From an uncultured Pseudomonadota bacterium (GTDB lineage Bacteria > Pseudomonadota > Gammaproteobacteria > Burkholderiales > Burkholderiaceae): a stretch of 34,801 bases of DNA. Below are positions 18,967 through 34,801 of this stretch, one piece after another (the first letter of the stretch is position 1; each line of letters begins with the position of its first letter). The stretch lies in NCBI GenBank assembly GCA_946480245.1, contig CAMLIZ010000036.1, forward strand, positions 1 through 34,801. The letters run 5' to 3'. The notes under the pieces are model-generated. The model saw only the letters and a list, made by a program, of their open reading frames with translations. It searched no databases and had not been told where the DNA came from. The translations under genes and the position numbers were made by a program.

Positions 18967-18996
18967 GGGGCGGCTCCGGTGCTGGCGCTGCTGGGG

Positions 18997-19649: not shown

Positions 19650-20411
19650 ATGGCGCTCATGGTCGACTACAGCAGATTCGCCCGCCTGGACTTCGACGGC
19701 TTTCGTGAGCTGGCGCGTGACCCGCAGCTCACGCGTCACGAGAAGGTGGGGTTTCCGGCGGCCTATCGGGAGGGCAAGGAGGCGGCGATCTTTGCCGACA
19801 TCCGCGCCAAGCTGCCGCGCCTCGATTCGCCCGGTGCCACCGTGCTGGAGATCGGCCCCGGCTGCAGCGCGCTGCCGGTGATGCTCGCTGCCCTGTGTGC
19901 CGAGCGCGGCGGCCGGGTGATCTTCGTGGACAGTGCCGAGATGCTCGCGCTGCTGCCCCACGGTGATCACATCGAGAAGTTGCCCGGCGCCTTTCCGGAA
20001 GCGGCCGCCGACCGGTTCGAAGCCCTGCACGGACGCGTCGATGCGATCGTGGCTTACAGCGTCGTGCAGTACGTGTTCGCGCAGGGCAACCTGTGGGATT
20101 TCCTCGACCGTTGCCTGGCGCTGCTGGCCGACGGCGGCGAGATGCTGCTGGGTGACCTGCCCAACCAGACGATGCGCAAGCGCTTCTTCGCCAGCCCGGC
20201 GGGCGAACGCCAGCATCGCGAGTTCACCGGTCGTGATGAAAAACCGGCCGTCGCCTTCAACTGCCTGCAGCCGGGCGAGATGGACGACAGCGTCGTGCTG
20301 TCGCTGCTCGCCCGCGCCCGCGCCCAAGGCTTCCACGCCTGGGTGCTGCCGCAGGCGCCCGCGCTGCCGATGGCCAACCGGCGCGAGGACATCCTGATCC
20401 GCAAACCCTGA
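19650..20411 (+). CDS. class I SAM-dependent methyltransferase
   Basis: About 253 residues. The SAM-binding motif I is ATVLEIGPGCSALPVML, the acidic strand-2 end is RVIFVDSAEML, and the later motif is VDAIVAYSVVQYVF followed by ADGGEMLLGDLPN, as in sugar and small-molecule methyltransferases of glycan clusters. Starts at ATG 19650 or 19659 are both possible and neither has a clear ribosome-binding site. It is the first gene of the rightward glycan unit; the next gene begins 12 bases after its stop. The acceptor is unknown, but its position suggests a sugar. Confidence 0.82.
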   Translation: MALMVDYSRFARLDFDGFRELARDPQLTRHEKVGFPAAYREGKEAAIFADIRAKLPRLDSPGATVLEIGPGCSALPVMLAALCAERGGRVIFVDSAEMLALLPHGDHIEKLPGAFPEAAADRFEALHGRVDAIVAYSVVQYVFAQGNLWDFLDRCLALLADGGEMLLGDLPNQTMRKRFFASPAGERQHREFTGRDEKPAVAFNCLQPGEMDDSVVLSLLARARAQGFHAWVLPQAPALPMANRREDILIRKP

Positions 20412-20422
20412 AGGAGCCGCAC

Positions 20423-21097
20423 ATGAAGAGCAGGAAGCTGGTGATCGTCGGGGATTCCGCGTTTGCAGAGATCGCGCGCGAATACTTCGACGCCGACTCG
20501 CCGTACCAGGTGGCGGGCTTCGCGGTGGAGGCGGCCTACCTGAAGCAGCGCGAGCTGCACGGGTTGCCGGTGGTGCCGTTCGAGGAGTTGGAGCGCCACT
20601 TCGCACCCGCGGAGCACGACGTCTACGTGGCCACGGTCTACACACAGCTGAACCGCCTGCGCACACGGTTGGCCGGCGCCGCCAAGGCGCGCGGCTACCA
20701 GCTTGCCTCGTACGTCAGCTCGCGCGCCTTCGTGTGGCGCAACGTCAAGCTCGGGGAGCACTGCTTCATCTTCGAGGACAACACGATCCAGCCGTTCGTG
20801 ACCATCGGCGACAACGTGGTGCTATGGAGCGGCAACCACGTTGGTCACCATTCCAGCGTGGGCGCCAACTGCTTCATCTCGTCGCACGTGGTGATATCGG
20901 GCTTCTGCACGATCGGCGACAACAGCTTCCTCGGCGTCAACTGCACGATCGCCAACAACGTGAGCATCGGCCGCGACAACTGGCTGGCGCCGGCCATCAC
21001 GGTGATGAAGAGCACCGAGGACGGCGCGATGTTCAAGCCCCCGGCGCCGGAGCTCGCGCGCCTGCCGGCGCCGCGCTTCTTCAAGGTGGCGGAGTGA
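20423..21097 (+). CDS. NeuD/PglD-like sugar acyltransferase (hexapeptide repeat)
   Basis: 224 residues. The N-terminal Rossmann-like sugar-nucleotide domain (KLVIVGDSAFAEIAREYFD, PYQVAGFAVE) is followed by a left-handed beta-helix with hexapeptide repeats (FIFEDNTIQPFVTIGDNVVLWSGNH, HHSSVGANCFISSH, CTIGDNSFLGVNCTIANNVSIG). This is the architecture of PglD and NeuD, trimeric acetyl-CoA-dependent enzymes that acylate amino or hydroxyl groups of nucleotide sugars; a His pair in NHVGHHSSVG is at the usual catalytic position. AAGGAG six bases before the ATG supports the start. It could N-acylate the 3-amino sugar predicted from the downstream genes. Confidence 0.85.
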   Translation: MKSRKLVIVGDSAFAEIAREYFDADSPYQVAGFAVEAAYLKQRELHGLPVVPFEELERHFAPAEHDVYVATVYTQLNRLRTRLAGAAKARGYQLASYVSSRAFVWRNVKLGEHCFIFEDNTIQPFVTIGDNVVLWSGNHVGHHSSVGANCFISSHVVISGFCTIGDNSFLGVNCTIANNVSIGRDNWLAPAITVMKSTEDGAMFKPPAPELARLPAPRFFKVAE

Positions 21098-22017
21098 CCT
21101 GGGTCAAGCACGGCATCGTCTGGCGCCCGGACGGCACCCTGCCCTGGGCGCGCAGCCACGCCACCTGCCCTACGCCGCTGCTGCGGCGCGATGGCGGCCT
21201 GCGCGTCTACCTGCAATGTCGCGACGGCACCAACGTGGGCCGCATCGGCTGGGTCGACCTCGACCCCGACGATCCGCGCCGCGTGCTCGCCCGAGCCGCC
21301 GAACCCGTGCTGGACATCGGCGCACCGGGCAGCTTCGACGACAACGGCGTGTTTCCCACCTCGGTGCTGCGCACGCCCGACGGCCGCGTGTTCCTGTACT
21401 ACGTGGGCTTCGAGCTGTGCCATCACATTCGCTACCGCCTGCTCACCGGATTGGCCGTGAGCGACGACGACGGTGCGAGCTTCCGCCGCGTGCAGGCCAC
21501 ACCCATCCTCGAGCGCTCGAGCGCCGAACTGCATTTCCGCTGCGGCCCGGGCGTGCTGCACGACGGGGGCCGCTATCGCATGTGGTACGTGGCCGGCAGC
21601 CGCTGGGAGACGATCGAAGGCAAGCCGATGCCGCTGTACGACATCCGCCACATCGAGTCACACGACGGCGTGCGCTGGCCTGACGAGGGCCGAGTGGTGC
21701 TGCCGCTGGACGAAGCGCGGGAGCACGGCTTCGGCCGGCCCTTCGTGCTGCGCGTGCCGGGCGGCTACCGCATGCACTACTCGGTGCGCCACCGCGACCC
21801 GGCGCGCTACCGGCTGGGCCTGGCGCATTCCCCCGACGGGCTGCACTGGACACGCGCCGACGAGACCCTCGGGCTGGAGCCGAGCCCGGGCAGCTTCGAT
21901 GCCGACACCTTGTGCTACAGCGCGGAGCTTCGCACCGCCGGCCGCACCTGGCTGCTCTACAACGGCGACGACTTCGGCGCGGCCGGCTTCGCCATCGCCG
22001 AGCAGGCTTCGACATGA
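21094..22017 (+). CDS. beta-propeller glycoside-hydrolase-like protein (GH43/32/130 fold)
   Basis: 307 residues, starting at GTG 21094, which overlaps the upstream stop (GTGA). Repeating blades are visible: PTPLLRRDGGLRVYLQCRD, SFDDNGVFPTSVLRTPDGRVFLYYVG, GPGVLHDGGRYRMWYVAGSRW, GYRMHYSVRH and TWLLYNGDDFGAAGFAIAE. The alternating aromatic/acidic pattern is that of five-bladed propellers of the glycosidase/phosphorylase superfamily. No signal peptide is seen, so it would act in the cytoplasm, perhaps on a nucleotide sugar or glycan intermediate. Catalytic residues cannot be assigned. It is firmly embedded in the glycan unit. Confidence 0.7.
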   Translation: MTWVKHGIVWRPDGTLPWARSHATCPTPLLRRDGGLRVYLQCRDGTNVGRIGWVDLDPDDPRRVLARAAEPVLDIGAPGSFDDNGVFPTSVLRTPDGRVFLYYVGFELCHHIRYRLLTGLAVSDDDGASFRRVQATPILERSSAELHFRCGPGVLHDGGRYRMWYVAGSRWETIEGKPMPLYDIRHIESHDGVRWPDEGRVVLPLDEAREHGFGRPFVLRVPGGYRMHYSVRHRDPARYRLGLAHSPDGLHWTRADETLGLEPSPGSFDADTLCYSAELRTAGRTWLLYNGDDFGAAGFAIAEQAST

Positions 22018-22967
22018 TGCAGGTGCGCCCGTTCAGGCCGGACGAGGCGGCCGCGTGGGACGCCTTTTGCAGCGCTGCGCACAACGCCACCCTGCTGCAC
22101 TCGCAGCGCTTCCTCTCCTACCACGGCACGCGCTTCGACGACCGCTCCCTGGTGATCGAAGCCGATGGCCGATGGCTGGCGGTGCTGCCGGCCGCGCTCG
22201 ACCCCGCGGATCCGCAGTGCGTCGTGTCGCACCCGGGGGCCACCTACGGCGGGTTGGTGCACCAGGGCGCACTGCGCGGACAACGCGCGGTGGACGCGCT
22301 CGAGGCGGTCGTGCGCCACTTCGCGCAGCAAGGCCTGCGGCGCCTGCTGTACAAGGCGGTGCCGCATGTCTATCAGACCGCACCGGCTCAAGACGACCTT
22401 TACGCGCTGTTCCGCCTCGGCGCTCGCCGCGTGCGCTGCGATCTGTCCAGTGCGCTCGACCTGGCGCACCCGCTCGGCTCGAGCGACCGGCGCCGGCGCA
22501 GCCTGAAGAAGGCGCTGCGCGCCGGCTTGCGTCACGAAGAAGGCGTGGCGGTCGCCCCGGCCGCGTGGCCGGTGATCGCGCAGACGCTGGCAACACGCCA
22601 CGGCGTTCAGCCGGCGCACACGCTGGCCGAGATCACGCTGCTGGCCGAGCGCTTCCCGCAGCACATCAGCTTTCACGCAGCGCTGCACGGCGATACGGTG
22701 GTGGCCGCGACGGTGCTCTTTCGTGCCGGGCCGGCGCTGCACCTGCAGTACTCCGCGGCCAGCCCGGCCGGCCAGGAAATCGGCGCGCTCGACCTGCTGA
22801 TCGACCGCGCCATCTCGCTCGCCCGCGCCACCGGCGCGCGTCACCTCGCGTTCGGTGTGAGCACCGAAGACGGCGGTCGTCGGCTGAACGACGGCCTGTA
22901 CCGCTTCAAGGCCGAGTTCGGCGCCGGCGGCGTCGTGCACGAATTCCACGAAATCGATCTGTCCTGA
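22014..22967 (+). CDS. GNAT/FemAB-like N-acyltransferase
   Basis: 317 residues. The layout is that of the FemAB-related double-GNAT family: an N-terminal half with WDAFCSAAHNATLLHSQRFLSYHG, then RRRRSLKKALRAGL, and a C-terminal acyltransferase half with ISFHAALHGDTVVAATVLFRAGPALHLQYSAASP and ATGARHLAFGVSTEDGGR. Such proteins transfer acyl or aminoacyl groups to amines and are common in glycan loci. The ATG overlaps the preceding stop (ATGATG; 22017 is an alternative). With the hexapeptide acyltransferase two genes upstream, there are two candidate acylating enzymes for one amino sugar. Confidence 0.8.
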   Translation: MMQVRPFRPDEAAAWDAFCSAAHNATLLHSQRFLSYHGTRFDDRSLVIEADGRWLAVLPAALDPADPQCVVSHPGATYGGLVHQGALRGQRAVDALEAVVRHFAQQGLRRLLYKAVPHVYQTAPAQDDLYALFRLGARRVRCDLSSALDLAHPLGSSDRRRRSLKKALRAGLRHEEGVAVAPAAWPVIAQTLATRHGVQPAHTLAEITLLAERFPQHISFHAALHGDTVVAATVLFRAGPALHLQYSAASPAGQEIGALDLLIDRAISLARATGARHLAFGVSTEDGGRRLNDGLYRFKAEFGAGGVVHEFHEIDLS

Positions 22968-22982
22968 CCACAGGAGCCGACG

Positions 22983-23390
22983 ATGTCCCTCGACGACTGC
23001 CAAATGCTCGACCTGCCCAAGATCCATGATCCGCGGGGCAACCTGACCTTCATCGAATCGAACCGGCATGTGCCGTTCGACATCCAGCGCGTGTATTACC
23101 TGTACGACGTGCCCGGCGGCTCGGACCGCGGCGGCCATGCGCACAAGACGCTGCACCAGTTCATCGTCGCGATGTCGGGCAGCTTCGACGTGGTGCTGGA
23201 CGACGGGCGCGACAAGAAGCGAGTGCACTTGAGCCGCTCCTACAACGGCCTGTACCTGTGCCCGATGATCTGGCGCGAGCTGGACAACTTCTCCTCCGGC
23301 TCGGTGTGCATGGTGCTGGCCTCGGCGCACTATGACGAGGGCGACTACTACCGCGACTACGCCGATTTCATGCGCGCGAGGTGGTCGTGA
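22983..23390 (+). CDS. fdtA: dTDP-6-deoxy-4-keto-hexose 3,4-ketoisomerase (FdtA/QdtA family)
   Basis: 135 residues, a small cupin of the WxcM-like/FdtA family. Diagnostic features are [34 protein letters not shown] with the catalytic histidine pair His52 and His54, and the C-terminal [16 protein letters not shown]. Characterised members move the keto group of dTDP-4-keto-6-deoxyglucose from C4 to C3, the step before 3-transamination in dTDP-Fuc3NAc or dTDP-Qui3NAc synthesis. Which C4 epimer is made (FdtA versus QdtA) cannot be read safely from sequence. The next gene is the matching aminotransferase, overlapping by four bases. Confidence 0.88.
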
Positions 23391-24490
23391 AGATTCCCTT
23401 CCTCGACCTGGCGCGCGTGAACGCGCCGCACGACGAGGCGATGCGCGCGGCGATCGACCGCGTGCTGCGCTCGGGCTGGTACGTGCTGGGCGCCGAGACC
23501 GAGGCCTTCGAGCTGGAGTTCGCGGCCTACTGCGGCAGCGCCCATTGCGTCGGCGTGGCCAACGGCCTGGACGCGCTGCACCTGATCCTGCGCGGCTACG
23601 GCATCGGCGCGGGCGACGAGGTGATCGTGCCGTCCAACACCTTCATCGCCACCTGGCTCGCGGCCACTCACGCCGGTGCAACGCCCGTGCCAGTGGAGCC
23701 CGATGCCGCCACGCACAACATCGACCCGGCGCGCATCGAGGCGGCGATCACGCCCCGCACGCGAGCTGTGATCGCGGTGCACCTGTACGGGCAGCCCGCC
23801 GACATGCGGCCGATCGCCGAGCTGGCGCGGCGCCACGGGCTCAAGCTGATCGAGGACGCCGCGCAGGCCCACGGCGCGCGCTATCACGGCCGCCGCGCGG
23901 GCAGCCTGGGCGACGCCGCCGCGTTCAGCTTCTATCCGGGCAAGAACCTCGGCGCGCTGGGCGACGGCGGCGCCATCACCACCGACGATCCGCAACTGGC
24001 CGCGCGCCTGCGCAAGCTGCGCAACTACGGCAGCGACATCAAGTACCGCCACGACATGCCCGGCTTCAACTCGCGGCTGGACGAGCTGCAGGCCGCGGTG
24101 CTGCGCGCGAAGCTGCCGCAACTCGACGCCGAGAACGCCGCGCGACGGGCGCTGGCGGCCGCTTACCTGGAGCAGCTTGCCGGCACGGCGCTGCAGCTGC
24201 CGGCGGTGATGCCCGGCGTGGAGCCGGTGTGGCACCTGTTCGTGGTGCGCAGCGCCGTGCGTGCGCGCCTGCAGGCCGCGCTGGCCGAGCGCGGCATCGG
24301 CAGCCTCGTGCACTACCCCACCGCGCCGCACGCGCAGGCGGCCTATGCAGGCCGGGCCTGGCCGCCGCTGCCGCTGGCCGAGCGCCTGCAGGCCGAGGTG
24401 CTCAGCCTGCCGATGGCGCCTTACCTCGGCGCGGCCGACGTGGCCGAGGTGGCGGCTGCGGTGCGCAGCGTGTCCGCGGCCACGGCATAG
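23387..24490 (+). CDS. DegT/DnrJ/EryC1-type sugar 3-aminotransferase
   Basis: 367 residues. PLP-dependent sugar aminotransferase with the catalytic Lys186 in [36 protein letters not shown] and [13 protein letters not shown]. Directly after the FdtA gene it is best read as FdtB/QdtB, aminating the 3-keto sugar with glutamate as donor. The GTG at 23387 overlaps the previous stop (GTGA) and has GAGG at good distance; a GTG at 23381 is an alternative. The last 70 bases overlap, tail-to-tail, the coding sequence of the leftward FkbM gene. Confidence 0.9.
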
Positions 24491-25596
24491 AGCGTGAGGT
24501 CGCTGCCGTCGCCGCCGTGGCAGCGCAGGTGGTAGCGGCTGCCGGGCGCGAGTTCTTCCACCAGCTCGAACAGGTCGAGCAGGTCGTCCGGGCGGTGGTA
24601 CACGCTCACGGCCAGCAGCGGGCGGCGCGCGCGAATGAAGGCCTGCGCACCCTGCAGCACCTCGCGCTCGGCGCCCTCGACGTCCAGCTTCACGAGTACC
24701 GGATCCGACAGGTGCTGTACCGAGGCCAGCGTGTCGGCCGGCACGGCAGGTGCGCCCTGCACGCTCACCGCGGAGCCCACGTGTCCGGTGCTATCGAAGC
24801 TCACCTCGCCCGCGTGCGACCACAGCGCGGCGCGCCGCAGCGCGATGCGCTCGCGCAGCGCGGGCGGCAAGGCCTGCACGCGTTGCACCATGCGCCGGTA
24901 GTTCGCGAGGTCGGGCTCGAACGCCACCACCTGCGAGAAGCGGTCACCGCGCCAGGCCAGGAACTCGGCCACCGTGTCGCCGTCGAAGGCGCCGCCGTCC
25001 ACGAAGGCGGGCCGGGCACTGTCCTCCAGGCCGAGGAAGTCCAGCTCACAGCGCGAATCGGGCAGCGCCGAGAAGTCGGCCAGCAGGCGCATCCTCAGGT
25101 GATCGTCCAGCACGCGGCGGGAGGCATCGTCGGCCAGGGCGGCATGCAGGCGCCGGTAGCGCGGTTGTTGCGCCACCTGGTGTGCGATGTCGCCGAGGTA
25201 CAGGTTGGGCAGGCCGGTGCCCAGCGTGTGCAGCAAGGCGGCGAACGGGTACACCTCGAGCGCGCGTACGCGCTGCAGCCGCTCGCGTGTGAGGGCGAAG
25301 CTGTGGCGCGCCGAGAAGATGCACACCACCACCACCGCGTCGTCCGGCAGCGCCTGCAGTCCGGCCTCCACCGGGTGCACTGGCAGGCCGCCGATCTGCG
25401 TGCCCTGCTTGGCCGGGGTGTCGTCCAGAAAGCAGCAGGCTGCGTCGCCCAGCAGCGCCGCCATCTGGCTGCCGGTCTGGCCGGCGCCCACGAGGGCGAT
25501 CGGTCGGTGCGCCGCCAGCGCGGCGCGCATGTCGCGCGTCGCCGCTTCGACGAAGGCCGACGCGGACCACGGCTCGAACAGGATTTCAGCGCGCAT
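24421..25596 (-). CDS. FkbM-family methyltransferase with N-terminal Rossmann-like domain
   Basis: 391 residues. The C-terminal half is an FkbM methyltransferase: [16 protein letters not shown] (SAM site), [31 protein letters not shown]. FkbM enzymes O-methylate hydroxyls of macrolides and sugars. The N-terminal part (residues 20-110) is a separate nucleotide-binding-like domain with [18 protein letters not shown] and [23 protein letters not shown], similar in style to the PglD/CoA-binding N-domain. Its ATG overlaps the PhyH stop by 11 bases. It is the last gene of the leftward glycan unit. Confidence 0.87.
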
Positions 25597-26404
25597 GCCT
25601 GTCCCGCCAATCGCGCACATCGGGCGCCGGGTTCCAGCGATAGCCGAGAAAGCGCGACAGGAACGGGTCGGCGGAGTGGTCGCGCCCCTGCTGCTGCAGC
25701 ATGCGCGGCATGTCGATCTGCTGCGCGAGGAACGGCGCCCCGACCACATGGTTCACCGCGCGGCGCGTGTGGTGCTCGGTGCTGTTGACGCCGGAGCGAT
25801 GGAACAGCATCGCGTCCATCATCACCACGGCGCCGGGTTCGGCCTCCACCGGCACCTCGTGCCGTGCCGCATAGGCATTGGACGGAAACGCCTCGTGCAG
25901 GTGCGACCCGGGGAGCACCCAGGTGGCGCCGCCTTCGGTGAAGAACCGGTCCACGCACACGAGGTGGTTCAGCGCCAGCGGACGCGAGCTGGTCCAGTGC
26001 TGGTAGTTGAGGTCGCGATGGAAGCGCGACTGCGCCTGGCGGCGCCGCGGCCGGTTGATCACCGCGTTCTGCATCAGCAGCACGATGTTCTCGCCGAGCA
26101 GCCGTTGCGCGATGGCGATCACCGGCGCCGGGCGGGCCAGCTCGAGCATCGCATCGTCATAGGCCAGCGGGCAGCGCAGCAGATCGAGATCGTGCGCGCG
26201 CTCCAAAGCCGCCTCGCCGCCGCATTCGGCGGTCTGCAGTGCCAACAGTTCGTCCAGGCGGTGCGCGGCCGCGGCCATGCGCTCGGGGGCGAACACGCCG
26301 GGCAGTACGGTGAAGCCGTCGCGTCGCAGTTCCTCGCAGTGCAGCGCGATGGCGTCGCCATCGGGTTCGCGTTCGCGCACGCCGTAGGTGGCCACCTCGT
26401 CCAT
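25586..26404 (-). CDS. phytanoyl-CoA dioxygenase (PhyH)-family Fe(II)/2-oxoglutarate enzyme
   Basis: 272 residues, double-stranded beta-helix dioxygenase. The iron ligands are His129-x-Asp131 (RFHRDLNYQHW) and His202 (LFHRSGVNST), and Arg214 or Arg215 (HHTRRAVNH) would bind 2-oxoglutarate, so the active site looks complete. Family members hydroxylate diverse small molecules. Its place between an FkbM methyltransferase and glycosyltransferases suggests hydroxylation of a sugar or acyl substituent of the glycan. GGAGAC before the ATG at 26404 supports the start. The gap to the upstream GT2 gene is 22 bases. Confidence 0.87.
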   Translation of the reverse strand: MDEVATYGVREREPDGDAIALHCEELRRDGFTVLPGVFAPERMAAAAHRLDELLALQTAECGGEAALERAHDLDLLRCPLAYDDAMLELARPAPVIAIAQRLLGENIVLLMQNAVINRPRRRQAQSRFHRDLNYQHWTSSRPLALNHLVCVDRFFTEGGATWVLPGSHLHEAFPSNAYAARHEVPVEAEPGAVVMMDAMLFHRSGVNSTEHHTRRAVNHVVGAPFLAQQIDMPRMLQQQGRDHSADPFLSRFLGYRWNPAPDVRDWRDRHAR

Positions 26405-26426
26405 GCGTGTCTCCGGTTTCGCTCGA

Positions 26427-27425
26427 TCAGGCGGCCGCCGCCTCGGGCGCTGCCGCGGGCTCGACTTCCCCCGTCTCGGCGAGAAGCTCGTCCCAGAAGA
26501 GGCGGAACGCCGACTCGAAGGACAGCAGGTCGCTCGCGTGATCGGCCACCACGCCGAAGAAGCGGTTGATGTGCTCGTCCTCGGCGCCGTACTGTGCGGC
26601 ACAGCGCTCCACCGTGATGGTCAACGCCCGCACGGTCTGCTCGGGCCCCATGCGTCCATCGCGCCACGCAGCCAGTGCCAGCGCGGCCCAGGCGAGGTAG
26701 CCGCACTTGAGGCCCAGCGAACGCGTGTTGGCGGTGGCCTGCGCCGCATGGCTGCGAAAGCCGCTCAAGTGGTCGCGGATGAAGGCGATCGGCGCGTGGC
26801 GCGACACATCCAGCAGCACGCCGATGTCACCCAGGCCGTAGTACGACAGGCCATGCATGCGACCGGCGCGCAGGCGCCGCACGCCTTCGGCGGACAGCAC
26901 GGTGTTCGTGCATTCGCCAAGCCAGTTCTCGCAGGTGGCCACGGTGCTGGCGAACAGCCGGTCCGCCGCCACCAGCATCACGCGCTCGTTGCTGTCGTGC
27001 ACGAACGCAGGCAGCGGCAGGATGGCCGCGGGCCGACCGGCGCTGGAGGTGACCCAGCGCTGACTCACCGAGGCGCCCGGCCCATGGCGCGCATGCGCCA
27101 GTGCGTGCGCGCGGTAGAAGTCGGGATAGATGACGTCGTCGTCCATGTGCAGGTGCACCAGCGGGGTCAGGTGGCCCCAGTGCGCCAGCAGGTGCTGCAC
27201 ATTGCGGAACGACCCGGCGCGCGGGCCCTGCACCAGCGTCAGGTCCAGCCCGCGCACGAGCGGCTCGAATCGGCCCTGGCGCAACAGCTCGGTGATCGCC
27301 CCGCCGGGGCTGTCGTCCGACAGCACCACGCGGAACTCGCGCAGGCTCTGCGTCTGCAGGCCGGCAAACAGCTCGCCCAGGTACTCGGTCTTGTAGGCGG
27401 GGATCAGCGTGGTGATCGCCGGCAT
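26427..27425 (-). CDS. family 2 glycosyltransferase
   Basis: 332 residues. GT-A fold: ITTLIPAYKTEYLGELFAGLQTQS, FRVVLSDDSPGG, and a metal-binding acidic run Asp95-Asp-Asp97 in LVHLHMDDDVIYPDFY. The acceptor part is unlike common lipopolysaccharide transferases. The C-terminal 20 residues are Ala/Glu-rich. The start codon overlaps the stop of the upstream methyltransferase-GT gene by one base (TGATG). Predicted to add one sugar of the flagellin glycan; donor and acceptor are unknown. Confidence 0.85.
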   Translation of the reverse strand: MPAITTLIPAYKTEYLGELFAGLQTQSLREFRVVLSDDSPGGAITELLRQGRFEPLVRGLDLTLVQGPRAGSFRNVQHLLAHWGHLTPLVHLHMDDDVIYPDFYRAHALAHARHGPGASVSQRWVTSSAGRPAAILPLPAFVHDSNERVMLVAADRLFASTVATCENWLGECTNTVLSAEGVRRLRAGRMHGLSYYGLGDIGVLLDVSRHAPIAFIRDHLSGFRSHAAQATANTRSLGLKCGYLAWAALALAAWRDGRMGPEQTVRALTITVERCAAQYGAEDEHINRFFGVVADHASDLLSFESAFRLFWDELLAETGEVEPAAAPEAAAA

Positions 27426-28696
27426 CAGGCGGCCCTCCGGTGACGCGCCACGAAGGCGTCGTCGATCACTCCGCAAAGGGTGTGGATCGGGCCGAAGCCG
27501 CGGTACTTGGCGGCCAGGTAAGCCGCCGATTCGTGGAAGGCCGGCGGCAGCACGTAGTCGTTCCATGAGTCGTGGAACACCGGCAGCCGCACGATGTGCG
27601 GGAACACCTTGTGCTCGCAGATCGCCGCCAGGCACAGCTCGGTGGCCCACAGGTGCCAGCCGATCGCGGGGTCGATGCGGTGGATCGTGTGGCGCGGCAG
27701 CAGCAGCGCGAACTCGTCGATCGACACCGCCGCCTGCGAGGCGGCGTGGTCGAAGCGGCTGAGGCGGTCGATCACGAAGCCGGCCGGGTGGTAGGCGTGG
27801 GTCTGCGCGTCCACCCCGATGCCGGCGAAGCCGATCAGCAGGTGTTCGGTGGCAGCGCCGGAGAGCTCGGCCAGCAGCGCATTCAGGCGATGACCGAAGC
27901 CGCGCGGAAAGTAGACGTCCTGGTGCGCCATCAGCACCCAGTCGGTGTCGCACTGCGGCAGCGCGCGCGCCAGCGCGTCCGCCGGCGAGTGCGCGCCATC
28001 GCACCGGACGACCTTGGCATCCACCTCGTGCAGGCCGGGTGAAGGCAGGATGTCGGCGCGGAACTGCAGCTCGCGCGTGGTGGGAACCACCACGCTGAAG
28101 CGAGCAGGCCCCGGCTGCTGCGGCGCCGCGCCGAAGCTGCGCTCGCCACGCACCACGAAACCGCCCACCGCCAGCGTGCGGCGCGCACTGGCCGCAGGCA
28201 TGCCGTGGCCTTGCGCCACCGCGCACAGCGCGGCGGCCGGCGCCTGGTGTTGCGCTTGCAGGGGCAGCGGTTCGAGCAGGTCCGGCGCCCATCCGCAGTC
28301 CAGCAGCAGCTTGTACAGCGCGGATGCCGACAGGCCCGCCTGTGCGGCCACTTCGGCGAGCGTCGAGTCGTTGATGTCCCCCAGCGCGAGGCGCTCGACC
28401 AGGGCGAAGCGGCCGGTGTTCGAGGTCTGCAGCAGCAACGGTGCGCCCGGCGCGGCCACACGCGCGGCCTGGGTCAGCAGCGCCGCGGCCGCATCGCCGG
28501 GTGGCAGCGCCTGGCTCACCACGATGAGGTCGAAGCTGGCGTCCGGCAGGGCCAGCAGCGAGGGCAGGTCGCCGGCGCGCTGCCAGGTTTCATGGCCGAT
28601 GCGCAGGCGGTGCGAAGCGCGCAGCGCGTCGTCGCTGCCCAGCTCGAGCACGCGCTGGGCCGGCGGCAGGTGCGTCGCGAGGCCCGCCGCGCTCAT
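27425..28696 (-). CDS. two-domain protein: methyltransferase-like N-terminus, GT-A-like C-terminus
   Basis: 423 residues. Residues 10-150 resemble a reduced class I methyltransferase: RVLELGSDDALRAS, SFDLIVVSQALPPGDAAA and APGAPLLLQTSNTG; the SAM loop is unusual (GSDDA), so activity is uncertain. Residues about 200-423 form a glycosyltransferase-like domain: FSVVVPTTRELQF, DTDWVLMAHQDVYFPRGFG (the HQD takes the DxD place) and HTIHRIDPAIGWHLWATELCL. The ATG overlaps the upstream stop as ATGA. This order, methyltransferase then transferase, is the mirror of the next gene upstream. Confidence 0.75.
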   Translation of the reverse strand: MSAAGLATHLPPAQRVLELGSDDALRASHRLRIGHETWQRAGDLPSLLALPDASFDLIVVSQALPPGDAAAALLTQAARVAAPGAPLLLQTSNTGRFALVERLALGDINDSTLAEVAAQAGLSASALYKLLLDCGWAPDLLEPLPLQAQHQAPAAALCAVAQGHGMPAASARRTLAVGGFVVRGERSFGAAPQQPGPARFSVVVPTTRELQFRADILPSPGLHEVDAKVVRCDGAHSPADALARALPQCDTDWVLMAHQDVYFPRGFGHRLNALLAELSGAATEHLLIGFAGIGVDAQTHAYHPAGFVIDRLSRFDHAASQAAVSIDEFALLLPRHTIHRIDPAIGWHLWATELCLAAICEHKVFPHIVRLPVFHDSWNDYVLPPAFHESAAYLAAKYRGFGPIHTLCGVIDDAFVARHRRAA

Positions 28697-30222
28697 CGCG
28701 CCGCTCCGGCCAGCCCCGACTCGCTGATCGCAGCCGCATCCTCCCCGGACGCCACGGCCCAGTCGTCGTCCACCCCGCCGAAGTCGGGCCGCATGGTGCG
28801 CGCCACGGTGCGCTCGCGCAGCGTGGTGGGGATCTTGCGCAGGCTCACGCGCATGAACGCGGCAGCCTCCTTGCCGCAGGGCTTCACCTGGGCGTCCAGC
28901 CAGCACGATTCGGCGATTTCGAAGCGGTACTCGAACCAGCCGAGGTACCAGAACCAGTCGGTGTAGTAGACCCACGAGTTCTCGTTCATCGCGCGCACGT
29001 GCGTCGGATCCTGCCAGGCGGTGAGCGCCTTCTCGTACGGCACCTCGATCTCGAACACGCCGCCTTCGCTCAGCAAGGCCAGCGCATTGCTCATCAGCGT
29101 GGGCAGGTCAGGTACGTGCTCGAGCACGTTGTTGGCGTACAGCCGCTCCACGCTGCCGGCCTCCAGTTGCACCGTGCCGCCGAAACGCGTGGGCAGCGTG
29201 AGCGGCAGTTGCATCGGGCGGCCCAGGTCGAGCACCACGTCCGGTTCGGCGCGGTCGAGCACGTCCACGTTCAGCCACCCGGGCTTGTAGTCCTTGCCCG
29301 AGCCGAGGTTCACCTCCTTCGGCCGCCAGGGGTCGGTGCTTCGGGTGCGGGCGTGGGCCTGCAGGTAGCCTGCACCGAAGGCCAGCAGGTCGGCATAAGC
29401 GTCCAGTGCATCGTGGCGTTGCCATCCGGCCAATCGGCGCCGTGCCGCCTCGAAGTAGGCCGGCGTCTTGAAATCGCGCCCGAAGAAGCTCTCGATCCCG
29501 TGCTCCGGGAGCCAGAACACCGCCTCCTCGAACGGGTCGTCGGCAGCCGTGGCGAGGCTGCGTTCGCTGATGACCGGCGTGCCCAGCGACAGGCAGTGGA
29601 ATGCCCGCACCTGCTCGAAGCGGCTGCTCTCGTAGAAATGGCAGTTCAGCACTGCCTTGGCCTGGCGGATGAAGCTGTCGCGCTCGGCGCCGTATACCGC
29701 GCTGTCGAACAGCGTCACCTGCGTGCCTGCAGCCTCCACCCGTTCAATGAAGGCGCGACGCCGCGGATTCATGCTGCCGAAGAACAGCAGGTCGATCGGG
29801 CGATCCTCCAGCGCGGGCGACTGCTCCGGCTGCAGGTAGGGCGCATGCAGGAACGGCACCACCGGCACGTCGGCCGGGTCCTGGGCGTAGGCAGGCACGT
29901 TGCGGGCGTCGTAGTCGACGACGGCCGAGCCGCGCAGCAGCTGAAGATACTCCGGCGACACATCGGCGCCGCCGGCACCGAGCTGCTCGAGGTTGAAGAA
30001 CAGGCAGGCATGGCGGCGCCGCCATGATGGCGGAAAGCCGAGGTGGGCACCGAAGACGATGTTGATGGCGTCCTCGCGCAGCCGGTTCTTCGCCAGGGTC
30101 ACCTCGGCGCCGAGCCGGCGCATCTGCCAGCGCACGTAGCGCGCGGTGTCGAGGAACACCAGGGAGTGCACGTAGCCGAGCGGCTGCATGACCGCGATGT
30201 GCACCGGTGGCAGGGAGTTCAT
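28693..30222 (-). CDS. bifunctional glycosyltransferase-methyltransferase fusion
   Basis: 509 residues. The N-terminal 290 residues look like a GT-B glycosyltransferase of the CgeB/GT1-like kind: IDLLFFGSMNPRRRAFIERV, then AKAVLNCHFYESSRFEQVRAFHCLSLGTPVISE. From residue 301 a class I methyltransferase begins, EVNLGSGKDYKPGWLNVDVLD, with VERLYANNVLEHVPDLPTLM and LSEGGVFEIEVPYE. One protein could thus add a sugar and methylate it. The start at 30222 has AAAGG eight bases upstream. It is separated by 87 bases, with a hairpin, from the GT2-TPR gene. Confidence 0.83.
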   Translation of the reverse strand: MNSLPPVHIAVMQPLGYVHSLVFLDTARYVRWQMRRLGAEVTLAKNRLREDAINIVFGAHLGFPPSWRRRHACLFFNLEQLGAGGADVSPEYLQLLRGSAVVDYDARNVPAYAQDPADVPVVPFLHAPYLQPEQSPALEDRPIDLLFFGSMNPRRRAFIERVEAAGTQVTLFDSAVYGAERDSFIRQAKAVLNCHFYESSRFEQVRAFHCLSLGTPVISERSLATAADDPFEEAVFWLPEHGIESFFGRDFKTPAYFEAARRRLAGWQRHDALDAYADLLAFGAGYLQAHARTRSTDPWRPKEVNLGSGKDYKPGWLNVDVLDRAEPDVVLDLGRPMQLPLTLPTRFGGTVQLEAGSVERLYANNVLEHVPDLPTLMSNALALLSEGGVFEIEVPYEKALTAWQDPTHVRAMNENSWVYYTDWFWYLGWFEYRFEIAESCWLDAQVKPCGKEAAAFMRVSLRKIPTTLRERTVARTMRPDFGGVDDDWAVASGEDAAAISESGLAGAAR

Positions 30223-30246
30223 GGGCGACGCCTTTCGACCTTCATT

Positions 30247-30272: not shown

Positions 30273-30309
30273 GGCGGCTCCAGCGCCCGATAAGCGCTGC
30301 CTTTGCCCC

Positions 30310-31308
30310 TCAGATCGGGCGGCCCAGGTGTGCCCGCAGCAGTGCCAGGTTATGAGCTGCAAGGTGGCTGCCGCGGCCCGCCACCGCACCCTCCAGCCCG
30401 GGCTGCTCGCCGATGGCCAGGCACTCGCGCCAGCTGGCTTCGGCCATCGGCAGCAGCTCGCCCGCTCGAGCCGGCGCTTCGGCAGCCCAGTCGAGCAGCA
30501 GGTCGCCGAGGGCGAAGAAGAAGTCGGGAGAGCGCGTCCACAGCGGCATTTCGCGCTGCGCCAGCGCCAGCGCCTCCGGATGGCGGTGCAGCTGCTTGAG
30601 CGTGAAGAGCGCGCGCACGACGAGGTCGTGGCGCCAGCCGGCCTGTTGCGGCGCGGTCGCCAGCGCGCTCGCATAGGCCGGCTCGGCCTCGGCGTAGCGG
30701 CCGTGCACTTCGTGGTCCTTGCCCATCTGATACAGCAGGTAGGGCTCGCCGGGAGCCTCGGCCAGCGCGAGCTGCAGCAGGCGCTGGTTGCGGCCGTCCT
30801 TGGCGCGCATGGCGGCGTCACGGTAGCCGTCGTGACCGATGTGCACCGCCAGGCGCTCGCGCGGGCAGGCCGATTTCGGCTGCTCGTGCACTCGTCCGGC
30901 GTAGCGCGTGCCGCGCGGCAGCAGGCGCGGCAGCCAGCTGGGGCTGCTGCGCACCGTGCCATCGGCGTCGAAATCACTGTCCACGCACAACAGCCCCACG
31001 AAGCAGGCACCGCGGCGAGCCGCCGCACGCAGCGAATCGCCCCCGCTGACAAGCCACTCGTCGGCATCGAGCACCAGGTGCCAGTCGGTGGGGCTGAGGT
31101 CGAGGGCGGCATTGCGTGCCGCCGCGAAGTCGTCCACCCAATCGAAGTGCGCAACGCGGGCGCCGCCGCGCTGCGCGGCCTCCGCAGTACCGTCGTTGCC
31201 GCCGGTCGCCAGCACCAGCATGTCGTCCACGTGCGCGCGCACGCTTGCAAGAGCGCGCGCCACGCCCGGGCCGGCGTCGCGCGCAATCATCACGAGGCCC
31301 AGGCTCAT
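30310..31308 (-). CDS. family 2 glycosyltransferase with TPR-like C-terminus
   Basis: 332 residues. The N-terminal GT2 domain has LGLVMIARDAGPGVARALAS, VLATGGNDGTAEAAQ, HFDWVDDFAAARNAAL and the metal-binding DADEW at 81-85. This is the subgroup often annotated as TPR-glycosyltransferases (SunS-like in layout). The remainder (about 175-332) is helical and TPR-like: EPYLLYQMGKDHEVHGRYAEAEPAYASAL. Its ATG overlaps the GT41 stop as ATGA, so it is translated together with it. It may extend the sugar laid down by the GT41 enzyme. Confidence 0.85.
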   Translation of the reverse strand: MSLGLVMIARDAGPGVARALASVRAHVDDMLVLATGGNDGTAEAAQRGGARVAHFDWVDDFAAARNAALDLSPTDWHLVLDADEWLVSGGDSLRAAARRGACFVGLLCVDSDFDADGTVRSSPSWLPRLLPRGTRYAGRVHEQPKSACPRERLAVHIGHDGYRDAAMRAKDGRNQRLLQLALAEAPGEPYLLYQMGKDHEVHGRYAEAEPAYASALATAPQQAGWRHDLVVRALFTLKQLHRHPEALALAQREMPLWTRSPDFFFALGDLLLDWAAEAPARAGELLPMAEASWRECLAIGEQPGLEGAVAGRGSHLAAHNLALLRAHLGRPI

Positions 31309-33218
31309 GGCGTCGCCGCGGGCAGGGCCTGGGCCGGCAGGCCCAGCGCAGCACGCTCTGCCATGCGCTCGAGCAGTGCCTCGAAGTCACGCGCGTAGCG
31401 GTCCGTGTCGAACAGTGGCAGCGCCAGGCGCTGCGTGTCCAGGTGCGCCTGCAGTGCACGCAGGCGCGGCGGGTCGTCGGCCAGCGCGACAACCGTATCG
31501 ACATAGCCTTGCGGATCGGCACAGATCAGCGAGTCGAGCCGGCAGGCGCGCAGCAGGCTTGCCGCCACGCGAGAGGCGAAGGTGGGCCCGGGCACGGTGA
31601 GAACGGGCACCCCGGCCCACAGGGCTTCGCTCGCCGTGGTGTGCGCATTGCACGGCCAGGTATCGAGGAACAGGTCCGCGCAGCGCAAGCGGGCAAGATG
31701 GTCCTCCAGCGACAGCTTGTCGCCGAACACGATGCGGCTCGACGGCACGCCCCGGCGGCCGAACTCCGCCATCAGGTTGCGCTCGGCCTGCGCGTTCCAG
31801 CGCAGCAGCCACAGCACCGCCCGCGGCACGCGCTGCAGGATCTGCACCCACAGGTCCAGCATGGCCGGCGAGAACTTGTAGACCTGGTTGAAGCAGCACA
31901 GTACGAGCGCGTCTTCGGGCAGCCCCACCGCGGCACGGGCCGGCCGCGGCGGCAGCGCGCGCTGGCGGTCATTGGGCTGGTAGGACCACGGCATCTGCGC
32001 GATGTGCTCGCTGAAGTGCTCTGCATGCTCCAGCGGCGTGACGACGGGGTCACCGATCACGTAGTCGATGAAGCCGGCCCCGGTGCTGCCCGGAAACCCG
32101 AGGTATGTGGCCTGTACCGGCGCCGGGCGCCAAGCCAGCACCTCGTAGCGGCTGCCGCGCGTATGGCCCTTCAGGTCGATCAGGATGTCGATGCCGTCGT
32201 CCCGGATCCGGCGCGCGATCGCCCGATGGGTGTCATGTGTGACGTCCACGAAGTGGTCGCACGCCTGCATCACCCGCGTGCGGATCTCCGATCCATCGTC
32301 CCGGCTGTGCGAGTACATGAACACCTCGAAGCGGTCGCGGTTGCGGCGCTCGAGCAGCTCGGCGATCAGCACGGCCGTGGCATGGTGGTGGATGTCGCTG
32401 CTCAAGTAGCCCAGGCGCAGACGGCCGGCGGGCAGCAAAGGGCGCGGCGGCAACGGCACCACAAGCCGCGTCAGCGAGCGCGAACGCGCCGTCGCTACGT
32501 GCAACTGTTCCTGCGGACTGCAGTCGACTGCGAGCAGCGCGAAGGGCGAAAGCAGCTGCCCGTCGTCCGCGCCCAGCCGCGCGATGGCCTCGTGCAGCGC
32601 CGCAGTCTCCTCGGCCAGCGCCGACCACCGGCAGGCCTGGCGGCTCTCGTGCACCAGCAGCGCCAGCGCCATCACCCTGCTGCCGCCGCTATCGAGAGCG
32701 GCCACCGTGCGAAAGCACTCGGCGGCCTCCTCCTTCAAGCCCAGGTCCATGAAGCACAGGCCCATGCGGTAGTGCACCAGCACGCTGTCCATCTTCGAGC
32801 TCAAGGCCTTGAAGAAGACACCGATCGCCTCTTGCGAACGACCGGCCTGGAACAGGGCGTTGCCGTGCGCGGCATGAAAATCGTGGTCGCGCGGCGCGTC
32901 CTGCGCCACGGCCTCGAAGCAGGCCACGGCCTCCTCGTTGCGGTGCAGTTGCAGCAAGCCCTCGGCGGCCAGGCGGGCGGCGACGGCACTGCGCGGGTCG
33001 AGCGCCAGGGCGCGCCGGCCGGACTCGATCGAGGCCGCCAGCAGCCCCATGCCGAGTTGCGCGCGGCCCAGGTTGATCCAGTACAGCGGCTGTCCCGGCG
33101 ACAGCTGGGTGGCCTGTTCGAACTGCTCGGCAGCGCGCTGCCACAGCCCGCGCTTGGCTTCGGCCACGCCGGCCTGCCAGTGCTTCAGGGCGCGCTCCTC
33201 GCGCAGAACAGGCTTCAT
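31305..33218 (-). CDS. TPR-containing O-GlcNAc-transferase-like glycosyltransferase (GT41, SPINDLY/OGT family)
   Basis: 637 residues. Residues 8-190 form about four TPRs, and 250-620 form the GT41 catalytic region. Family motifs: LGYLSSDIHHHATAVL (273-283 region, catalytic-His loop), IDLKGHTRGSR (347-357), APVQATYLGFPGSTG (366-380), CFNQVYKFSP with Lys448 at the UDP-contacting Lys place of human OGT, and FLDTWPCNAHTTASEALWAGVPVLTVPG. GT41 enzymes add a single sugar to Ser/Thr of proteins in the cytoplasm, with TPRs choosing the substrate. It is transcribed away from fliC, 309 bases from it, so flagellin is the obvious acceptor. It leads the leftward unit. Confidence 0.92.
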   Translation of the reverse strand: MKPVLREERALKHWQAGVAEAKRGLWQRAAEQFEQATQLSPGQPLYWINLGRAQLGMGLLAASIESGRRALALDPRSAVAARLAAEGLLQLHRNEEAVACFEAVAQDAPRDHDFHAAHGNALFQAGRSQEAIGVFFKALSSKMDSVLVHYRMGLCFMDLGLKEEAAECFRTVAALDSGGSRVMALALLVHESRQACRWSALAEETAALHEAIARLGADDGQLLSPFALLAVDCSPQEQLHVATARSRSLTRLVVPLPPRPLLPAGRLRLGYLSSDIHHHATAVLIAELLERRNRDRFEVFMYSHSRDDGSEIRTRVMQACDHFVDVTHDTHRAIARRIRDDGIDILIDLKGHTRGSRYEVLAWRPAPVQATYLGFPGSTGAGFIDYVIGDPVVTPLEHAEHFSEHIAQMPWSYQPNDRQRALPPRPARAAVGLPEDALVLCCFNQVYKFSPAMLDLWVQILQRVPRAVLWLLRWNAQAERNLMAEFGRRGVPSSRIVFGDKLSLEDHLARLRCADLFLDTWPCNAHTTASEALWAGVPVLTVPGPTFASRVAASLLRACRLDSLICADPQGYVDTVVALADDPPRLRALQAHLDTQRLALPLFDTDRYARDFEALLERMAERAALGLPAQALPAATP

Positions 33219-33527: not shown

Positions 33528-34373
33528 ATGTCGATGACCATCAACACCAACATCTCGTCGCTGAACGCGCAGCGCAACCTGAACATGTCGCAGGATTCGC
33601 TACGTACCGCGATGCAGCGCCTGTCCTCGGGCTTGCGCGTCAACAGCGCCAAGGACGACGCTGCCGGCCTGTCGATCGCCGAACGCATGAACGCCCAGGT
33701 GCGCGGCATGAACGTGGCCATCCGCAACGCCAACGACGGCATCTCGCTGTCGCAGACCGCCGAAGGCGCGCTGTCCCAGGTGGGCGACTCGCTGCAGCGC
33801 ATGCGCGAGCTGGCCGTGCAGGCCCGCAACGCCACCAACTCCAGCTCAGACAAGGACTCCCTGAACAAGGAGTTCGCGCAGCTGCAGTCGGAAATCACCC
33901 GAGTGCTCGGCGGCACCTCGTTCAACGGCAAGAAGATCCTCGGTACCGACGCCGGCGCGCTGAAGTTCCAGGTCGGCGCCAACACCACCACCAACGACCA
34001 GGTGACGGTGACCACCTCGGACATGACCGCCGACACCAAGATCACTGCGGTCACCGTGTCCACCGCCGTGATCGACAGCACCGCAAGCGATGGCGCGATC
34101 GGCACCGTGATCGACAACATCGACAAGGCGATCGATGACGTGAACGACACGCGCGCCACCTTCGGCGCCACCCAGAACCGCTTCAACTCCATCATCGCCA
34201 ACCTGCAGCAAGGCGTGGAGAACCAGTCCGCTGCGCGCAGCCGCATCATGGATTCGGACTTCGCACAAGAGACCGCCAATCTCAGCCGCGCCCAGATCCT
34301 GCAGCAGGCCGGCACCGCCATGGTCGCCCAGGCCAACCAGCTGCCCCAGCAGGTGCTGCAGTTGCTTCGATGA
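33528..34373 (+). CDS. fliC: flagellin FliC
   Basis: 281 residues, a short flagellin with D0/D1 helices and almost no outer D2/D3 domain. N-terminus TINTNISSLNAQRNLN, RLSSGLRVNSAKDDAAGLSIAERM; C-terminus ARSRIMDSDFAQETANLSRAQILQQAG and the terminal QVLQLLR. The central exposed segment 152-187 is rich in Thr and Ser (about 16 of 36), giving likely O-glycosylation sites. AGGAG seven bases before the ATG fixes the start. It has its own sigma-28 promoter and terminator, and a second flagellin gene follows. Confidence 0.97.
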   Translation: MSMTINTNISSLNAQRNLNMSQDSLRTAMQRLSSGLRVNSAKDDAAGLSIAERMNAQVRGMNVAIRNANDGISLSQTAEGALSQVGDSLQRMRELAVQARNATNSSSDKDSLNKEFAQLQSEITRVLGGTSFNGKKILGTDAGALKFQVGANTTTNDQVTVTTSDMTADTKITAVTVSTAVIDSTASDGAIGTVIDNIDKAIDDVNDTRATFGATQNRFNSIIANLQQGVENQSAARSRIMDSDFAQETANLSRAQILQQAGTAMVAQANQLPQQVLQLLR

Positions 34374-34434
34374 GCCTACTGGCTCGGGCCCGGCCGCGCC
34401 CAGCGCGCCGGGCAGCGCCTCCCCGGCGCATTAA

Positions 34435-34458
34435 GACACCCGCCTTCGAGCGGGTGTC
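34435..34458 (+). terminator. intrinsic terminator after fliC
   Basis: GACACCCGC (34435-34443) pairs perfectly with GCGGGTGTC (34450-34458) around CTTCGA. It is 61 bases after the fliC stop; the downstream T-run is short (CGCGTTTCT). The stable stem argues that fliC is monocistronic. Confidence 0.7.
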
Positions 34459-34496
34459 CGCGTTTCTGGCGCTGTGAAAAAGGGCGCTTGACAGAC

Positions 34497-34523
34497 TCAA
34501 GTCGGGCGCTCGTTCGCCCGATA
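34497..34523 (+). promoter_or_regulatory. sigma-28-like promoter for the second flagellin
   Basis: TCAA (34497-34500) then, after 15 bases, GCCCGATA (34516-34523), an imperfect match to GCCGATAA. The position relative to the gene (about 225 bases upstream) mirrors that of fliC. Confidence 0.55.
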
Positions 34524-34749
34524 TATGCACCATCGGGTCTGCAGCAGGGACCCGGGGTCCGGTTAGCCGGCCGAACGAGCGCAGATGCCATTGACCGGCA
34601 CTGCGGTCCCAAGCGGTTGACTAGCGTCGGGCGGAGCCAGCGGCATGACACCGCAGGCTCGAATGGCAGGCCGAAAGCGCACGGGCGCGCCGGCCGCTTG
34701 AAGCGCCCGGCGCTGTTGCCGGGAGTCAACCGAAAGGAAAGGAAGCATC

Positions 34750-34801
34750 ATGTCGATGACCATCAACACCAACATCTCGTCGCTGAACGCGCAGCGCAAC
34801 C
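34750..34801 (+). CDS. fliC: second flagellin gene, first 17 codons only
   Basis: ATG at 34750 with AGGAAG just upstream. The 52 bases present are identical to the first 52 bases of the complete fliC, and encode MSMTINTNISSLNAQRN. The rest lies beyond the window. It is therefore a tandem flagellin paralog; whether it is full-length cannot be seen. Confidence 0.9.
   Translation, partial: MSMTINTNISSLNAQRN

Follow-up and report, generated by a model that had tools for sequence, protein, structure and literature searches.

A putative flagellin glycosylation island between flhDC and fliC in an uncultured member of the Burkholderiaceae

The window analysed here, a stretch of 34,801 nucleotides from an uncultured bacterium of the Burkholderiaceae (contig CAMLIZ010000036.1, assembly GCA_946480245.1), carries an island of thirteen genes, g1 to g13, between the flagellar master regulator genes flhDC and the flagellin gene fliC1. 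We consider it likely that this island glycosylates flagellin. FliC would be O-glycosylated in the cytoplasm, starting with g7, a putative protein O-glycosyltransferase with tetratricopeptide repeats (TPR) and a GT41 domain; the glycan would be extended by other transferases of the island and would probably be capped by an N-acylated 3-amino-3,6-dideoxyhexose. Which genes are present, the families and folds to which they belong, and their repeated linkage to fliC were observed directly; which protein is the acceptor, which donor g7 uses, how the sugars are ordered, and what caps the chain are inferred. Most unusual are a beta-propeller protein within a biosynthetic sugar module, the separability of this module, which occurs with two types of transferase, and the natural range of island sizes.

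Linkage of the GT41 gene to fliC in related genomes

The original prediction had deduced a flagellin glycosylation island from position, and the relatives support this view. Species genomes were scanned with an alignment of 22 GT41 sequences and two exact peptide patterns; 104 stretches were returned, 84 were confirmed, and 80 loci were kept. GT41 reaches 45% identity to that of the window at 52 loci, and 43 of these have fliC within 2.3 kb (the cut was set after inspection of the table and on rounded values; L044 has 44.6%). The two genes are divergent, as in the window, at 34 of these 43 loci and codirectional at nine, where the flagellin is only 37–40% like that of the window. At five of the nine loci without fliC (L017, L036, L041, L043, and L044) the contig extends less than 1 kb upstream. 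On the far side flhDC is present at 16 loci. A second search, which overlaps the set of 80 loci, matched GT41 in 104 of 250 genomes; among the best 30 matches, inspected with about 1.5 kb of flanking sequence, 19 show fliC (one at the edge only), nine show g8 beside GT41, and two show neither.

Conservation of the block beside fliC, for which a survey had been proposed, was found as well. Four loci (L042, L045, L046, and L048) contain a near-whole block next to fliC, consisting of GT41, g1–g6, g8, g9, g11, and g10. In L042 g10 is cut at the contig end and flhDC is out of view; flhDC is visible in the other three. The genes g8 and g9 recur beside GT41, with 26 and 17 full-length copies, respectively, in the tested loci. 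Taken together, the proximity of GT41 to fliC in relatives and the four near-whole blocks beside fliC support flagellin as the target.

Family searches for GT41, RmlB, and NeuB were run on eight chosen relatives (G001–G008), of which G001–G004 are metagenome-assembled genomes. Each of G001–G005 has a single GT41 gene (matched in two stretches that belong to the same gene), and in G001–G004, the genomes with the near-whole blocks, it is the island's own. Because the TPR-GT41 gene stands beside fliC, occurs alone at locus L007, and is present as a single copy in these five genomes, we propose that g7 attaches the first sugar.

The identity of GT41 to the window sequence rises with that of the closest-matching divergent fliC next to it (Spearman 0.77, n=34) and with that of g9 (0.58, n=17), less so with that of g8 (0.24, n=26) and not with that of flhC (–0.38, n=14, p=0.18). 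All these correlations ignore phylogeny, and the covariation of GT41 and fliC is only suggestive of a link.

Variant arrangements were also seen. At L113, L115, L039, and L005 the flagellar arrangement is accompanied by a tandem pair of GT41 genes or by an additional GT41 fragment. At three alphaproteobacterial loci, L050, L051, and L056 (from a Beijerinckiaceae metagenome-assembled genome, Beijerinckia, and Lichenibacterium), a GT41 gene with 40–42% identity is situated about 1 kb or less from flagellin matches.

Layout and gene content of the island

Analysis of open reading frames, starts, and frames in the window confirmed the thirteen-gene block between flhDC and tandem fliC genes: all 13 genes (19650–33218, Table 1) are intact. 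They form two convergent strings, g1–g6 running rightward from flhDC and g7–g13 running leftward from fliC. The tight coupling of the strings, which had also been predicted, is evident from the coordinates, with overlaps at eight of the 12 junctions: 4 bp at g2/g3, g3/g4, g5/g6, g9/g10, and g7/g8, 1 bp at g10/g11, 11 bp at g12/g13, and 70 bp at g6/g13, where the strings meet tail to tail. The G+C content of the window is about 70%. Beyond flhDC follow motA, motB, and cheY; beyond g7, fliC1 is followed by the start of fliC2. The centre of fliC1 is rich in threonine, with 14 Thr and four Ser within a stretch of 60 residues.

Table 1. Genes of the island and its flanks, with predicted products and supporting matches (SAM, S-adenosylmethionine; ORF, open reading frame)
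Gene	Predicted product	Position	Strand	Evidence
flhC	Flagellar master regulator (flank)	18427..18966	-	Pfam FlhC E=1.1e-85
flhD	Flagellar master regulator (flank)	18997..19323	-	Pfam FlhD E=3.4e-40, scored on longer ORF 18997-19464
g1	Putative SAM-dependent methyltransferase	19650..20411	+	Methyltransf_12 E=1.5e-5, Methyltransf_25 E=2e-4, both under Pfam gathering score
g2	Hexapeptide sugar N-acyltransferase, NeuD/PglB/VioB type	20423..21097	+	Hexapep E=5.6e-18
g3	Beta-propeller, GH130/GH43/GH32-like	21094..22017	+	Predicted structure, fold and profile matches
g4	FemAB/GNAT-type acyl- or aminoacyl-transferase	22014..22967	+	Acetyltransf_6 E=3.6e-9
g5	FdtA-type dTDP-4-keto-6-deoxyglucose 3,4-ketoisomerase	22983..23390	+	Pfam FdtA E=9.9e-59
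g6	DegT-family sugar aminotransferase, likely C3	23387..24490	+	DegT_DnrJ_EryC1 E=1e-118
g13	FkbM-type methyltransferase	24421..25596	-	Methyltransf_21 E=3.3e-11
g12	PhyH-type Fe(II)/2-oxoglutarate dioxygenase (hydroxylase)	25586..26404	-	PhyH E=7.9e-22 on longer same-frame ORF
g11	GT2-like glycosyltransferase	26427..27425	-	TLIPAYK and DDD invariant in 8/8 aligned proteins
g10	Two-domain protein: possible degenerate methyltransferase and possible GT-A transferase	27425..28696	-	Methyltransf_11 E=0.0037
g9	GT-B glycosyltransferase fused to SAM methyltransferase	28693..30222	-	Predicted GT-B fold, residues 3-290; C-terminal methyltransferase by Pfam
g8	GT2 glycosyltransferase	30310..31308	-	Glycos_transf_2 E=1.1e-7; C-terminal TPR-like matches weak, E=0.0016 or worse
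g7	TPR and GT41 protein O-glycosyltransferase, proposed initiating enzyme	31305..33218	-	Glyco_transf_41 E=2.3e-101 plus TPR
fliC1	Flagellin, proposed acceptor	33528..34373	+	Flagellin_N E=2e-44, Flagellin_C E=9e-26
fliC2	Flagellin, start only, cut by window end	34750..34801	+	52/52 bases identical to fliC1 start

The families had originally been assigned from motifs. Most of these assignments were confirmed by sequence searches against Pfam, NCBIfam, and the PDB, namely FlhC, FlhD, CheY, flagellin, the hexapeptide acyltransferase, FdtA, DegT, FkbM, PhyH, the GT2 enzyme g8, and TPR plus GT41. Less firm are g1, with methyltransferase matches below the gathering score, and g11, which is GT2-like by its motifs only: its Pfam match is not significant (E=0.15) and a PDB profile search returned no match.

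For g7 the start at 33218, giving 637 residues, is most likely the correct one among several in-frame starts, the others being longer. TPR matches fall within residues 14–176, and the GT41 match extends to residue 611. The relatives found in the PDB search comprise XcOGT (E=4.9e-102) and human OGT. His279 and Lys448 of g7 align with residues 218 and 388 of XcOGT, which have catalytic roles in that enzyme, and both are invariant in 22 of 22 aligned sequences. The best match in the protein search is 84% identical. Rubrivivax, Ideonella, and Piscinibacter are represented among the named GT41 homologues, so that the DNA probably comes from a member of the Burkholderiales close to Rubrivivax and Ideonella.

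Two fusions of glycosyltransferase and methyltransferase had been predicted. This description holds for g9. For g10 such a fusion is a weak proposal from sequence matches: besides the methyltransferase match, the C-terminal part has a weak PDB profile match to 2qgi/2nxv (E=0.001), and an HQDVYF motif is invariant in six of six aligned proteins. Profile comparison revealed no relation of g10 to g11 or to g8. A single HxD motif (HRD, residue 129) is present in the dioxygenase g12.

The sugar module g1–g6 contains, judged by families and nearest structures, the set for dTDP-Fuc3N or dTDP-Qui3N (3-amino-3,6-dideoxygalactose and 3-amino-3,6-dideoxyglucose), consisting of the isomerase g5, the 3-aminotransferase g6, and the N-acyltransferase g2, and this set stays together in relatives. 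The isomerase g5 scores better with 5tpu (E=2.9e-36) and 2pa7 (E=1.9e-34) than with QdtA (E=3.8e-28), and the PDB matches of g6 are headed by 2oga, QdtB 3frk, 7n63, and 5u1z. The acyltransferase g2 scores 150.3 bits against the NeuD_NnaD model (E=4.9e-44; cut-off 160.8), and its best PDB match is a perosamine N-acetyltransferase acting at 4-N (E=9.7e-13), compared with E=3e-5 for the 3-N enzyme QdtC. The match of g4 to the model of the XrtA/PEP-CTERM FemAB family (E=1.5e-11) is far under the model cut-off. For g3 a structure was predicted with a mean confidence (pLDDT) of 94.7. Foldseek places it near the mannoside phosphorylases of family GH130 and further glycosidases with a propeller fold, with template modelling (TM) scores up to about 0.75, and there is a profile match to a 1,2-beta-oligomannan phosphorylase (E=1.2e-16); in the model the fold thus resembles GH130 and neighbouring propeller families.

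No RmlB was found among the island proteins. In seven of the eight relatives RmlB is present above the family cut-off, the exception being G002, a metagenome-assembled genome. NeuB was likewise not found among the island proteins; it is matched in five of the eight relatives, including the island-bearing G002–G004, and is not matched in the island-bearing G001. Pseudaminic acid is a possible but unsupported donor of g7.

On this basis the following pathway can be proposed. RmlA and RmlB encoded elsewhere in the genome would supply dTDP-4-keto-6-deoxyglucose, which would be isomerised by g5, aminated at C3 by g6, and N-acylated by g2 to an activated 3-acylamino-3,6-dideoxyhexose, Fuc3N-like or Qui3N-like. 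Further acyl, methyl, or hydroxyl groups may be added to the sugar or its acyl group by g4, g1, g12, and g13. In the cytoplasm and before export, the TPR part of g7 would recognise FliC and the first sugar would be placed on Ser or Thr of the Thr-rich centre, whose residues are plausible acceptors judging from the sequence. The chain would then be lengthened by g8, g9, g10, and g11. The next transferases are likely to be g8 and g9. RmlD at one locus (L011) hints at rhamnose near the start of the chain. With the type B flagellin glycan of Clostridioides difficile as an analogue, the product of g5, g6, and g2 most likely joins the chain late or caps it.

A strict consensus scan of the window for sigma-28 promoters gave a single site, at 16302–16328 on the minus strand just upstream of cheY; it has three mismatches, and 100 shuffled sequences gave 0 matches. 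With a looser pattern nine sites were found against 4.4 expected (at least nine in three of 100 shuffles), some of them preceding the fliC genes. A sigma-70 scan of positions 18900–34801 found none.

The sugar module and the fliC–flhDC interval

The content of the interval varies between relatives. In the 16 intervals with flhDC the distance from the GT41 end to flhD ranges from 0.28 kb (281 bp, L007) to 9.8 kb (L052). Locus L007 (positions 7860–10051) of Rhizobacter sp. Root1221 has a lone GT41 gene between several copies or pieces of fliC and flhDC and is a natural minimal version. For other intervals 20 of 109 called open reading frames were submitted to Pfam (the gene caller used for relatives also yields shadow frames); these 20 proteins include UDP-GlcNAc 2-epimerase, UDP-galactopyranose mutase, sulfotransferases, RmlD, CDP-glycerol glycerophosphotransferase, and WbqC. 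The RmlD gene, for dTDP-rhamnose synthesis, is situated directly between GT41 and g9 (L011, 11974–12939).

We also approached the interval from flhC. A search of 80 genomes of the family gave 55 with a match, from which 20 regions were picked by hand for spread and likely contig extent; G001 and G479, with GT41 loci already known, were left out, and genomes with two flhC genes were sampled once. In 16 of the 20 regions fliC is upstream of flhD within 11.4 kb, and in four fliC was not seen. The gap measures less than 1.8 kb in 11 of the 16 and 2.8–11.4 kb in five. These regions make fliC next to flhDC look like the ancestral order, into which the island was inserted. GT41 matches are present in four of the 20 regions (L138, L144, L148, and L149), in L144 and L149 beyond fliC and thus outside the gap. 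Across these regions the interval has the look of a slot that can take up genes. In a more distant genome the gap of 11.4 kb (L148, 5754–19397) holds two GT41-like genes (27 and 31% identity) together with PhyH, propeller, acyltransferase, and DegT genes, all 27–42% identical to those of the window.

Within the interval the sugar module behaves as a unit of its own. In the block relatives g1–g6 follow directly after g9, whereas in the window they form the separate convergent string; the module has therefore been rearranged. Moreover, in the four block relatives GT41 is just 45–47% identical to the window and FdtA 86–89%, while L001, L006, and L011 have a GT41 with 59–62% identity and no FdtA match. 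It seems, then, that the module travels independently of GT41.

A search for the propeller g3 in 399 genomes of the order yielded eight genomes with matches at E ≤1e-60, and wider stretches were viewed for the seven besides G001. In G179 g1–g6 are situated between fliC and motA, and in G305 about 5 kb from fliC. The viewed stretches of both genomes show no GT41 match; in G179 a second contig bears a GT41 match of 41% and a third bears flhC. Beside the module these two genomes encode giant proteins of 1510 and 1532 residues (L126, 1630–6162, and L129, 3540–8138) each containing several GT2 domains; that of 1532 residues is RgpF-like as well. The module g1–g6 can be separated from the rest of the island and is found with two transferase types that are unrelated, TPR-GT41 and multi-GT2.

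One could go further and regard g1–g6 as a portable unit with its own GH130-like enzyme, which would remodel or build a sugar by reverse phosphorolysis, and which could be plugged into either TPR-GT41 or multi-GT2 flagellin transferases; in this lineage the TPR-GT41 would have changed to a donor such as dTDP-rhamnose, in place of UDP-GlcNAc or pseudaminic acid. We regard this extension as doubtful. Still, a Fuc3N-type portable module with a GH130-like propeller would permit a test of the role of a degradative-type fold inside a biosynthetic sugar pathway. Apart from this extension, the results point to the fliC–flhDC interval of this group of Burkholderiales as a site at which flagellin sugar genes are swapped and the TPR-GT41 stays beside fliC. 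Because natural islands contain from one gene (in Rhizobacter sp. Root1221) up to thirteen, their comparison offers a way to test in which order the sugars are added.

Alternative explanations and known systems

Several observations weigh against flagellin glycosylation by the whole island. Four loci (L014, L015, L018, and L024) have at least 2.9 kb of upstream sequence, yet no fliC is in view. Where GT41 is less than 45% identical, fliC is in view (within 1.3 kb) at just four of 28 loci, a count in which the FliC query from the window may miss divergent flagellins. Three of the eight relatives, G006–G008, have two GT41 genes each. The identity of GT41 also leans to that of flhD (0.46, n=16, p=0.07, again ignoring phylogeny). 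L045, L046, and L048 lack matches to FkbM and PhyH, which therefore look accessory; of the four block relatives only L042 has both. Flagellar-type promoter matches precede neither island operon, with the strict or the looser pattern, and sigma-28 control of the island was rejected for that reason. Finally, the module is not always close to flagellin genes. In G100 it adjoins an ATP-binding cassette (ABC) transporter and a GT61 enzyme, with no fliC within about 17 kb on either side; in G045 no fliC is seen within the viewed 7–8 kb on either side; and in G170 and G237, which have distant versions of the module, fliC is not in view. Leaving out G117 with its contig of 7.3 kb, the module, located independently of GT41, is near fliC in three of five judgeable genomes (G001, G179, and G305, not G045 and G100); once the window and G002–G004, found through GT41, are included, the count is seven of nine. 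The module may therefore also feed other polysaccharides. An occurrence far from flagellar genes or beside O-antigen genes, which would have spoken against the original prediction, was thus encountered for g1–g6 only, in two of five genomes and once beside the ABC transporter and GT61; it was not encountered for the whole block.

These positions of the module lend themselves to a mosaic in which g7, g8, and g9 alone act on flagellin, while g1–g6 and some of the transferases serve the O-antigen of lipopolysaccharide, another polysaccharide, or both. The module being a separate convergent string in the window is in line with this, and flagellin glycosylation and O-antigen have genes in common in Burkholderia (PMC3958885). 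We nevertheless judge such a division unlikely, given the counts near fliC above, two of them beside multi-GT2 proteins, and given that export and polymerisation genes were not found by Pfam in the island of the window. It is very unlikely that GT41 and its partners glycosylate a protein other than flagellin and that the neighbourhood reflects co-regulation with motility. GT41 enzymes do have varied targets. HMW1C, which glycosylates an adhesin, is an example (PMC3012730). Against another target, GT41 adjoins fliC both divergently and codirectionally, in the latter case with a different flagellin type, and does so also at a few alphaproteobacterial loci; furthermore, the design of TPR plus glycosyltransferase matches FlmG (see below), whose TPR domain binds flagellin. 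That an O-antigen or capsule cluster stands beside flagellar genes by chance is extremely improbable, even though the enzyme families of the island are common to such pathways and FdtA and DegT are found in O-antigen and capsule clusters. Among the 13 proteins Pfam detects no flippase (Wzx), polymerase (Wzy), ABC exporter, or lipid-linked initiating transferase (phosphoglycosyltransferase), a protein O-glycosyltransferase family is present, and the fliC linkage is repeated; O-antigen synthesis was rejected as the principal function on these grounds. Flagellin glycosylation hence remains the preferred explanation.

The island can be compared with several described systems. In Enterobacteriaceae variable inserts between fliC and fliA form flagellin islands, with GT41 in 14 of 42 types (De Maayer and Cowan 2016, PMC4875605). 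They carry DegT/FdtB, NeuD, FkbM, and other methyltransferases; the rhamnose-type islands mostly lack rmlB, which is encoded elsewhere in the genome. According to the same report, the glycosyltransferase families are mutually exclusive within the island of a strain, and most of the GT41 proteins have a methyltransferase domain. The island of the window is likewise a variable insert adjacent to fliC with the GT41, DegT/FdtB, NeuD, and FkbM families, but it is placed between fliC and flhDC and combines TPR-GT41 with GT2-type and GT-B transferases. Its other genes include those for the GH130-like propeller, the PhyH-type dioxygenase, and the FemAB-like transferase.

FlmG of Caulobacter crescentus, with N-terminal TPR and a C-terminal GT-B domain, glycosylates flagellins in the cytoplasm, its TPR part binding flagellin (PMC7591256). 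g7 has the same arrangement of domains. FlmG, however, needs pseudaminic acid, whereas NeuB was not found among the island proteins. A control genome of Caulobacter vibrioides gave a PF13844 match that was not tied to FlmG, and the likeness of g7 and FlmG is one of architecture.

The type B flagellin glycan of C. difficile is Fuc3N-Rha-Rha3OMe-GlcNAc-Ser (PMC5207245). There Fuc3N ends a short rhamnose-containing chain, the position proposed here for the amino sugar, and the locus encodes an FdtB-like aminotransferase and a putative acyltransferase. An FdtA homologue is absent from that locus, and its Fuc3N bears a taurine-Ala-Gly cap. The window, by comparison, has FdtA, the propeller, PhyH, and FkbM, and the proposed initiator is a TPR-GT41. 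Pseudomonas islands also adjoin the flagellin gene and are polymorphic in P. aeruginosa (PMC3958885). In P. syringae the terminal sugar of the glycan is a 4-amino-4,6-dideoxyglucose, N-acylated, O-methylated, and linked to rhamnose; the sugar proposed here would carry its amino group at position 3 instead.

The original prediction had not recognised the combination as a described system. In the open-licence literature, with most subscription papers outside its scope, we found among the matches listed no description of fliC–flhDC islands of this group of Burkholderiales or of this combination of genes. Nor did the matches listed include a paper on glycosylated flagellin from Rubrivivax, Ideonella, Leptothrix, or Sphaerotilus (PMC3443583 names flagellin in its references only). 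The kind of island, in contrast, has been described (PMC4875605, PMC7591256). Thus the kind is already known, and it is the mix of genes and the chromosomal slot that look new.

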